Shown here one piece after another: positions 5,132-6,292 of a stretch of DNA of 32,144 nt. Source of the stretch: a virus; the IMG/VR virus record IMGVR_UViG_3300032282_000107, positions 1-32,144 of that record; one strand, given 5' to 3'. The first letter of the stretch is position 1; each line of letters begins with the position of its first letter. Below the pieces are notes generated by a model, which was not told the DNA's origin, did no database searches, and saw only the letters and a program-made list of their open reading frames with translations. Position numbers and translations under genes: made by a program.

Positions 5132-5231
5132 AATCTCCCGTAAGTTCAAGCGCTCTTGTGATGACAAAATGGCTAAATTGTTGGCCTTCTCTGACACGAT
5201 TAAGGATTGCCGTTGCTTCATGGTGTGTCAT
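4992..5231 (-). CDS. small phage protein (MTHHEA... type) with an extended overlapping tail
   Basis: The start ATG at 5231 overlaps the stop of the replication gene (ATGA). The first 35 residues, MTHHEATAILNRVREGQQFS then HFVITRALELTGDY, resemble short phage proteins of about 35-40 residues that normally stop at this point. Here the frame continues 44 more codons through the next gene in a different frame, and that tail (Gly, Thr and Ser rich) looks like translated noise. A small deletion at the GGAGATTATGA junction could have removed an ancestral stop. Function unknown. Confidence 0.55.
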   Translation of the reverse strand: MTHHEATAILNRVREGQQFSHFVITRALELTGDYETNGSNGVDQAVQKESARGRTGGSALLVATDPSGHCQETWTSGCR

Positions 5232-5920
5232 GCCTTTTTCCTTAGTTGAGCCATTCTTTCTAAATCCGCAAGGTTTGGTGGTCTTGTTATGCGTTCATCG
5301 GCTTTGATTTTTTCAAGTGCGGGGTCGGGCTCATTTTTGCTTGGAATTGTGAGCCTTACAACGTCATAAGGGTTTTGTTTTGGTGCATTGGTGCTTCTCA
5401 CCCAATTGCGCCATGTTGCAAACCAATCTAGCTTTGTGCCTTTAGGTTGCGAAACCCAATAATCTTTAAATTGGTCAAAGGTTTTGACGGGGTTAAGTTC
5501 TGGCCTTGTCTGTTGGCAGAACTGCTCCCATTCCAATGGAAAACTAAAATCAATGGCGAGGCGTTTGCCGAGCGATTTCTTCTCTTTCTTTGTCTCTGTC
5601 TCTCTCTCTGTCTCTAGTAGATCAACTTGATATCCATCTGATATCAAGCCGATATCATCTTGTTCCAACCAATGAGACAACTTAATAACAATTTCTTTGG
5701 TTTTAATTTCTGTCAATCTAAGACGAAATGCAAGAGTTTTGGTGTCGGGGATGCGCCCATCATTCTCACTAGCGATTAACCAAAGCATAACCAACACTTT
5801 GGCGGCCAAAGGGTCTAATTCATGCCATTCAAGGTCGTCAAGGATGTCACGGTATAACTTCACCCAAGGAGGCCGCCTATCCTTGAAATGCTGAAACTTT
5901 GTCCAGTTTTTAATTTTCAT
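5228..5920 (-). CDS. phage replication initiation protein (lambda O / DnaT-like)
   Basis: A 230-residue protein in the position of a replication initiator. The N-terminal part (about 1-100), opening MKIKNWTKFQHFKDRRPPWV, is a winged-helix-like DNA-binding domain typical of phage replisome organisers. A Glu/Thr/Lys-rich linker (103-115) follows. The C-terminal segment FDQFKDYWVSQPKGTKLDW (148-166), with FATWRNWVR, resembles the DnaT/primosomal C-terminal motif that contacts the host helicase loader. No helicase or polymerase is encoded nearby, so host replisome recruitment is expected. The start is fixed by the conserved N-terminus; it lacks a good ribosome-binding site and lies 3 bases after a hairpin, so the structured leader (5921-6045) probably controls it. 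GATATC repeats inside the gene may be the origin. Confidence 0.75.
   Translation of the reverse strand: MKIKNWTKFQHFKDRRPPWVKLYRDILDDLEWHELDPLAAKVLVMLWLIASENDGRIPDTKTLAFRLRLTEIKTKEIVIKLSHWLEQDDIGLISDGYQVDLLETERETETKKEKKSLGKRLAIDFSFPLEWEQFCQQTRPELNPVKTFDQFKDYWVSQPKGTKLDWFATWRNWVRSTNAPKQNPYDVVRLTIPSKNEPDPALEKIKADERITRPPNLADLERMAQLRKKA
5629..5656. repeat. three GATATC repeats at 11-base spacing, possible origin iterons
   Basis: GATATC occurs at 5629, 5640 and 5651, exactly 11 bases apart, so all three sit on one face of the helix. They lie in the middle of the replication gene, next to a CT/GA-rich tract (5589-5615). Lambda-type origins use iterons inside the O gene, which makes this a candidate initiator-binding site. 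Each repeat is itself a palindrome. Chance cannot be excluded with only three short copies. Confidence 0.35.
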
Positions 5921-6036
5921 AAAAGCCCAAAAAAAAGGGCTACACCTGAAGTCTCACCCTTACGGATGTTGGCGGACTGGCACAGTACCAGCAGACTTCA
6001 TGTGTAACCCTACTGTGAAACACCGCCAAGTGTCTT
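5921..6036 (-). ncRNA. structured leader RNA upstream of the replication gene (riboswitch-like)
   Basis: Read on the minus strand. A long closing stem pairs 6010-6002 with 5945-5937 and 6000-5993 with 5954-5947, 17 pairs with one A/G mismatch between the two halves. Inside it are a hairpin CUGG/CCAG (5991-5977) and a hairpin CAUCC-GUAA-GGGUG (5968-5955) with a GNRA-type tetraloop; together they make a three-way junction. Upstream, AGACAC/GUGUUU (6035-6018) forms a hairpin whose loop UUGGCG complements CGCCAA in the junction strand (5974-5969), a possible pseudoknot. The G-U pairs in the closing stem and GUAA hairpin become A-C mismatches on the plus strand, so the fold favours the minus-strand transcript. 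No known riboswitch or ribozyme core was recognised. Confidence 0.6.
5924..5941 (-). promoter_or_regulatory. alternative hairpin at the replication start codon
   Basis: On the minus strand AGCCC (5941-5937), eight U and GGGCU (5928-5924) form a hairpin that ends 3 bases before the ATG at 5920, followed by UUU. The same AGCCC is the last part of the closing stem of the upstream RNA, so the two structures exclude each other. It could mask the initiation region or act as a weak terminator (only four U follow). Confidence 0.5.
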
Positions 6037-6045
6037 TTCATAATT

Positions 6046-6201
6046 TTACTCTAAAAACCAACTAGGCCGCAACACCATCAATTGATAAAGCCGCCCATTT
6101 GGAATGGTTTTCCAATTATTAACTGCCGCCCTAGTGATGCCCAAGATGCGGGCTAGCTCACTCTGTGAGCCTGCAAGTGTGATAGCTTTTTGTTTATCCA
6201 T
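6046..6201 (-). CDS. Cro-like helix-turn-helix repressor
   Basis: A 51-residue protein with a helix-turn-helix at about 12-31 (SQSELARILGITRAAVNNW), the style of Cro/YdaS-type regulators; the recognition helix would be TRAAVNNWKT. It is the first gene of the leftward unit and lies beside the divergent control region, so it likely autoregulates and represses the rightward unit. The frame opens 13 codons further upstream, but MDKQKAI at 6201 is the expected start. No Shine-Dalgarno sequence precedes it; a TATACT box 7 bases before the ATG suggests a leaderless mRNA. No CI-type partner is seen. Confidence 0.75.
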   Translation of the reverse strand: MDKQKAITLAGSQSELARILGITRAAVNNWKTIPNGRLYQLMVLRPSWFLE

Positions 6202-6292
6202 TAACAAAGTATAGCAAAATAAACAAATAAACATTTGCAAAAATACAACGAGTAAAAATATTTTTATAAAAATCTTTGTTTTTGTTAAGATT
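6189..6292. promoter_or_regulatory. divergent control region with TTTGTT operator-like half-sites
   Basis: TTTGTT or its complement AACAAA occurs at 6189, 6203, 6222, 6275 and 6281. The first two make a 20-base imperfect palindrome (6189-6208) over the Cro-like start codon. CAAAT-AAAC-ATTTG (6224-6237) and AATCTT...AAGATT (6271-6292) are further inverted repeats. The region is very AT-rich. They are candidate binding sites for the Cro-like protein; the low complexity of the region means some repeats may be chance. Confidence 0.45.
6208..6213 (-). promoter_or_regulatory. -10 box of the leftward promoter
   Basis: TATACT on the minus strand, one base from the consensus TATAAT. No good -35 lies at 16-18 bases; the best candidates are ATGTTT at 15 bases and TTGCAA at 21. 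The box ends 7 bases before the ATG of the Cro-like gene, so transcription would begin at or next to the start codon. Confidence 0.4.

Follow-up and report, generated by a model that had tools for sequence, protein, structure and literature searches.

The Cro-like/replication gap and its fold

The window, meaning the whole 32,144-nt stretch analysed here (IMG/VR record IMGVR_UViG_3300032282_000107, positions 1 to 32,144), comes from a lake phage. On its minus strand, a structured RNA of about 105 bases (5929–6036) precedes a replication gene. The RNA lies in a gap between a Cro-like ORF (6046–6240) and the replication ORF (5228–5920), both on the minus strand; the gap measures exactly 125 nt, the length given in the initial annotation. 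Read along the minus strand, the locus contains the following.

6046–6240, minus: Cro/YdaS-like regulator ORF upstream of the RNA (Pfam YdaS_toxin 3.4e-9, P22_Cro 3.7e-9; phrog_409)
6067–6072, minus: putative -35 box TTGCGG, 18 nt before the -10 box and overlapping the end of the Cro-like gene; weak by consensus, with comparative support
6043–6048, minus: putative -10 box TAAAAT, whose TAA doubles as the Cro-like stop codon
6034–6036, minus: predicted transcription start, at the base of H1 and 7 nt past the -10 box
6019–6034, minus: 5' hairpin H1, stem GACAC/GUGUU and loop UUGGCG; double changes in 5 of 5 pairs, with 95% paired cells
6024–6029, minus: 5' strand of pseudoknot PK1, UUGGCG, pairing with 5969–5974
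6011–6017, minus: 5' strand of pseudoknot PK2, CACAGUA, in the linker abutting P1; complementary to loop A sequence by sequence
5993–6011, minus: 5' strand of the closing stem P1; double changes in 17 of 19 pairs, with 93% paired cells
5977–5991, minus: hairpin A, a 4-bp stem CUGG/CCAG with its loop engaged in PK2; 3 of 4 pairs change on both sides
5981–5987, minus: 3' strand of PK2, UACUGUG, which is the loop of hairpin A; complementary to the linker sequence by sequence
5969–5974, minus: 3' strand of PK1, CGCCAA, between hairpins A and B, pairing with 6024–6029; compensatory changes
5955–5968, minus: hairpin B, loop GUAA here and GCAA, GAAA or UUCG in relatives (fold and alignment)
5936–5954, minus: 3' strand of P1, pairing with 5993–6011 and sharing the P1 covariation
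5929–5936, minus: U8 tract directly after P1, a predicted intrinsic terminator (sequence, and a U tract in the aligned members)
5924–5928, minus: GGGCU, covering the Shine–Dalgarno (SD) region and complementary to AGCCC in the 3' strand of P1
5228–5920, minus: replication gene (PHROG 26426 replication protein 1.2e-13; PHROG 3992 primosomal protein 3.5e-10), start codon 8 nt past the U tract

The initial annotation described the gap as folding almost completely on the minus strand, with a closing stem at 6010–5993/5954–5937, two inner hairpins, one of which carries a GUAA loop, and an upstream hairpin whose UUGGCG loop complements CGCCAA in the junction. The computed minus-strand fold contains every one of these elements at −47.3 kcal/mol (z −3.68), and none of 200 shuffles folded as well. 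That anatomy was right in its stems and in the UUGGCG:CGCCAA pairing and had missed three things: the second pseudoknot (6017–6011 with 5987–5981), the U8 tract after the closing stem, and the putative promoter upstream. The closing stem, P1, spans 18 bp and ends in the U8 tract.

The plus strand of the gap also folds better than chance (−37.1 kcal/mol, z −3.01), so energy alone leaves the strand unsettled. We assign the RNA to the minus strand because of the U8 tract, the position of the putative promoter, and an excess of G·U over A·C cells in the alignment of relatives (47 versus 22), which is what is expected if the minus strand is the RNA. The earlier assertion that the fold is strand-specific stands on these three observations and does not stand on energy.

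Relatives, covariation and the two pseudoknots

Relatives were collected as tblastn-confirmed homologues of the replication and Cro-like proteins, supplemented by a pattern on the conserved core of the RNA. From freshwater viral contigs this yielded at least about 95 different versions of the element, and a covariance model recovers members at E values of 1e-13 to 1e-24. The loose pattern TTGGCGG..TCCGCCAA was discarded as a finder, as it returns mostly chance palindromes; of 80 such matches in bacterial genomes that were checked with the covariance model, none was accepted. Among bacterial genomes the model was positive in one of 399 Burkholderiales (L510), in none of 274 Gammaproteobacteria and in none of 190 Alphaproteobacteria. 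In BLAST searches of phages and plasmids, the only carriers were two near-identical Manatee Spring genomes. The annotation of the Manatee Spring phages MW202462 and MW202544 places a hypothetical protein across the element on the opposite strand and leaves the replication gene downstream of it without an entry.

The RNA falls outside the known families, as had been supposed. There is no gathering-level Rfam 15 match anywhere in the window; at E ≤ 10 the only match in the window is a chance one to mir-87 at 14.9 bits, and seven divergent loci gave only chance matches. A tRNA identity was also considered, and no tRNA was found in the window. A literature search of partial coverage turned up no description of such a double-pseudoknot RNA.

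The covariation check proposed with the initial annotation came out strongly in its favor. In alignment A1, made of 30 divergent sequences, 91.6% of the cells are standard pairs, 32 of the 45 pairs change on both sides, and all of the nested helices covary. The covariation score is 0.515, versus 0.179 for shuffled alignments and 0.06–0.12 for slid controls; together with the shuffled folds, these results rule out a chance fold. The sequence of P1 can be wholly replaced with the fold retained, as when GGGUUACAC/GUGUAGCCC becomes AAGCCUUAG/CUAAGGCUU.

The two pseudoknots required different treatments. The PK1 hexamers UUGGCG:CGCCAA are invariant within the main subfamily, and the compensatory changes lie beyond it: a structure-only descriptor scan, which had zero matches in 3.7 Mb of shuffled sequence, found a subfamily of 14 loci with UUGGUC:GACCAA and one member with CUGCAA:UUGCAG. 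For each of the two inner PK1 pairs, a joint alignment shows double changes in 15 of 31 sequences. PK2 was scored sequence by sequence because MAFFT misaligns the columns where loop A varies in length. All 32 distinct hairpin-A loops complement their own linker by at least 5 bp (range 5–8 bp), and 30 of the 32 true loop/linker pairs reach at least 6 bp, versus 18% of mismatched pairs. The fold and both pseudoknots are established by this comparative evidence, and by the same sequence comparison the fold is maintained through paired mutations in well over 100 related phages; the function is what we infer. The claim of a conserved structured RNA preceding replication genes is thereby borne out. 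What has been added is a well-supported RNA class new to Rfam and widespread in freshwater phages, unusual in that its double pseudoknot is arranged around a predicted terminator, within a broader kind, the phage leader/terminator RNA, that was already known.

Putative promoter, predicted terminator and the gene behind them

Among 59 non-redundant members, about 83% have a -10-like hexamer starting 16–20 nt 5' of UUGGCG, with other single offsets at about 0–7%, and in many of them a TTGnnn lies 17–18 nt before that hexamer. Since these boxes sit at a fixed distance, transcription is expected to begin at the base of H1. The putative promoter of the window itself is a poor one, with 8 of 12 consensus positions, and it does not appear in the list from a generic promoter scan. 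At the other end, P1 followed by U8 would constitute an intrinsic terminator; it is absent from an automatic terminator scan that allows loops of up to 8, and P1 encloses a region that is unusually long for a terminator hairpin. Both the promoter activity and the termination are predictions.

In 89 of 89 members the next ORF has the same orientation as the RNA, and in essentially all of them it starts about 10–15 nt past the U tract (8 nt in the window). A further promoter would not fit into this interval, and the gene behind it is apparently expressed solely by readthrough of the predicted terminator. That gene is a replication-type ORF in 57 of the 89, and in 29 more such an ORF comes second, behind one small gene and no more than about 1 kb away; since five of the query ORFs are of uncertain function and match themselves (L423, L435, L451, L454 and L460), about 80 of 89 is the safer count. 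The small intervening genes are homing-endonuclease-like or other small ORFs. Insertions placed precisely between RNA and replication gene recur (L056, L407, L413, L420, L453, L465, L468, L479 and L496); we judge their ORFs by sequence to be HNH or GIY-YIG homing endonuclease-like. Often the first gene past the RNA encodes a small protein of about 60–75 aa with a shared core, ..ITQ..VWLTVHQFE.. (L187, L402, L430, L431, L445, L446, L452, L455, L456, L463, L474, L494 and L507).

A location nearly always near replication genes would also suit a replication primer or an origin element, RNA II-like or a single-strand origin, rather than a gene-control RNA. We regard this as extremely improbable. 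The excess of G·U pairs indicates selection acting on an RNA, the placement of the terminator and SD sequence suits gene expression, and the new RNA adjoins several types of replication protein instead of one.

The reading that we favor, and hold to be moderately probable, is that the RNA is a leader/sRNA attenuator of the replication operon, composed of a promoter, a double-pseudoknot RNA and the P1-U8 terminator. The unit of about 105 nt would comprise the promoter, the double pseudoknot (H1, PK1 and hairpin B, with hairpin A and PK2 around P1) and the terminator. Transcription begun at the unit's own promoter, or coming through from the Cro-like gene upstream, would mostly end at P1-U8 and give a stable small RNA as the main product; the minority of transcripts that continue would serve as mRNA for the replication gene. 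The fold of the RNA would in this way set or switch the amount of replication protein. The initial annotation had suggested a regulatory RNA, ligand-sensing or protein-binding, controlling the onset of replication; its placement before the replication gene is kept, and we extend the leader fold to a self-contained, predicted promoter-RNA-terminator unit in a slot common to interchangeable terminator RNAs.

Three candidate routes to readthrough might be imagined, attenuation and its regulation both being predicted from sequence and fold. First, PK2 may fold before the last strand of P1 emerges and oppose the full formation of P1. Strict mutual exclusion of PK2 and P1 was discarded, as PK2 can form in a coarse rigid-body model once about 2 outer P1 pairs have opened. 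Since PK2 abuts P1 and these pairs must open, it could work weakly against the base of the terminator, and with so small a steric conflict we retain this opposition as a weak possibility. Second, the 3' strand of P1 may pair with the SD region. Across members, the leader past the U tract scores a mean of 9.5 against its own P1 3' strand versus 7.1 for shuffled leaders, with 7.9 the highest of 200 shuffle means; this complementarity of the SD-region leader is suggestive only. Third, the terminated RNA may act back in trans.

The leader position, the predicted terminator and the elaborate conserved tertiary fold would also be expected of a metabolite- or protein-sensing attenuator of the riboswitch type, in which the double pseudoknot would be the aptamer and P1-U8 the expression platform. 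This seems improbable to us. The conserved unpaired junction bases in the main subfamily are few (G47, U63 and C64 in element numbering) and, as far as the alignment can tell, leave little for a metabolite pocket. The downstream genes are replication genes, homing-endonuclease-like genes and small phage genes; they include no metabolic set and are coherent for replication only. No alternative antiterminator pairing was found ahead of the U tract.

Exchange of RNAs in the slot

Where relatives of the same replication gene do not have the new RNA, another structured terminator RNA occupies its slot. In L019 (3900–3975), it matches the int-alpA RNA (RF02996) at 36.0 bits with a gathering threshold of 35.8; other records with this slot mate score 28–35 bits, under gathering. 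Of 80 replication loci, 27 have the new RNA, 48 have the int-alpA type and none has both. RF02996 was not detected in 25 new-RNA records, and the new RNA was not detected in the slot-mate records, apart from one 15-bit match at chance level. On the tree of the replication proteins, the new-RNA label needs 6 changes, at least 5 of them forced by supported branches, and a poorly resolved Cro tree agrees with repeated exchange of the RNAs. From mutual exclusion and repeated exchange, we conclude that the slot RNAs behave as exchangeable cassettes. In the int-alpA-type slot RNA, the loop of hairpin B complements two repeats past the U tract, one of them near the SD sequence (for example CCGCACCC with GGGUGC and GUGCGG).

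After Cro-like genes in general, one finds the new RNA, the int-alpA type, or one of two further unnamed types, 3 and 4. In both, the promoter is near consensus (TTGACA-N17/18-TATAAT), the terminator stem is strong, and an internal strand complements a segment or the loop of a 5' hairpin. Neither has an obvious start codon right past the terminator, an arrangement more in keeping with a trans-acting RNA than with a leader. The type 3 RNA of L107 (4119–4290) combines the promoter TTGACA..TATAAT with a terminator stem and a long stretch of complementarity, GUGACGCUAAUCA:UGAUUAGCGUCA, and an Rfam search with it gave no match; the type also occurs in L108, L109, L110, L119, L123, L125, L136, L140, L143, L145 and L148. 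In type 4, which also has a near-consensus promoter, the 5' hairpin loop GUAGGAA pairs with an internal UUCCUAC, the pairing changes in concert to GUGAGAA:UUCUCAC, and the terminator is CGGCUUUUUUU (L112, L113, L115, L121, L128, L135, L137, L138 and L139). A second, similarly built RNA is found elsewhere in phages carrying the main RNA, at L484:6330–6470 (plus), L478:3978–4120 (plus) and in L452 (minus). It has a loop GUGCGGGC complementary to an internal GCCCGCAC and a terminator AGGGGCUUUUUU, and it too had no match in an Rfam search.

Could the new RNA be a stand-alone trans-acting sRNA, serving superinfection immunity, host takeover or lysis-lysogeny control, that only incidentally lies before the replication operon? 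The close start codon would then reflect the compactness of the genome, and OOP adjoins lambda O in the same manner. The RNA has its own promoter-like boxes, a predicted terminator and a very compact fold, its slot mates of types 3 and 4 have near-consensus promoters and no start codon directly past the terminator, and the cassette-like exchange resembles that of immunity regions. We nevertheless judge it rather unlikely. Action in trans does not need the tightness with which a same-strand ORF follows the U tract in 89 of 89 members; the pseudoknots consume both main loops and leave little single-stranded RNA for antisense pairing; and no known sRNA family in Rfam matches.

A broader proposal, which we advance tentatively as possible and short of probable, is that the slot is a general replication-control RNA locus. 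It would be occupied by sequence-unrelated, pseudoknotted RNAs bounded by promoter and terminator, functionally equivalent and exchanged like immunity modules. Its members would be the new family, int-alpA and at least two more, and swappable attenuators, rather than protein alone, would set replication. Since the new RNA is tied to replication genes and is interchangeable with the functionally unexplained int-alpA RNA, the pair offers a route to both functions.

Comparison with known systems

The new RNA belongs to no family tested. The int-alpA RNA occupies the same slot in close relatives and is likewise a three-way junction closed by a terminator stem. It differs in its CUAG/CGAAAAG core, in its other sequence and junction, and in having no UUGGCG 5' hairpin; the RF02996 covariance model, with its CUAG...CGAAAAG core, has no match in the window. 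The slot position is common to the two, and this is position and not homology.

HK022 put RNA, which folds at the beginning of an early phage transcript, affects termination, and a put-like reading of the new RNA would have it bind RNA polymerase in cis so that terminators, its own included, are ignored. In its favor are the position at the start of an early operon, the folded RNA near the 5' end, and the fact that put RNA works without a phage protein (PMC9378689). We consider it very improbable, as put is about 70 nt with two stem-loops and occurs in two copies per genome, putL and putR (PMC9378689), whereas the new RNA ends in a predicted terminator and is present once per phage in 36 of 36 records. 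The same count rules out multiple copies in the manner of nut or put sites.

IsrK of the Salmonella prophage Gifsy-1 arises from one promoter that gives both a terminated sRNA and a readthrough mRNA (PMC4825925). At the sequence level only, the new RNA is alike in its promoter-like boxes, predicted terminator and ORF reached by readthrough. It is unlike IsrK, which acts on antQ/orf45, in preceding a replication gene, and it has no Rfam match of any kind.

An RNA pseudoknot also precedes the replication initiator gene repZ of ColIb-P9 and the IncI plasmids (PK-repZ; PMC12370729). The likeness is a loop-junction pseudoknot, PK1, before a replication gene, and it is confined to PK1 and position; here a U8 terminator lies between PK1 and the SD sequence, and there is a second pseudoknot. 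In the plasmid, the repZ pseudoknot promotes translation, and an antisense RNA counteracts it. We take the hexamers UUGGCG and CGCCAA to be the same as those of ColIb-P9 and the IncI plasmids.

Finally, in satellite phage P4, the replication genes are shut off by premature termination in the leader, with a small RNA involved (PMC4825925). Both systems would have a replication gene downstream of a leader terminator, predicted in the present case. P4 relies on a processed RNA and on antisense pairing (seqA-CI-seqC), in contrast to the single compact double pseudoknot with its own putative promoter; the only complementarities found in the new RNA are internal ones, namely PK1, PK2 and the P1 3' strand with the SD region. 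RNA-based replication control is already known from P4 and plasmids, and if the attenuator reading is true, such control of phage replication would be far commoner than has been recognized and would evolve by cassette exchange.
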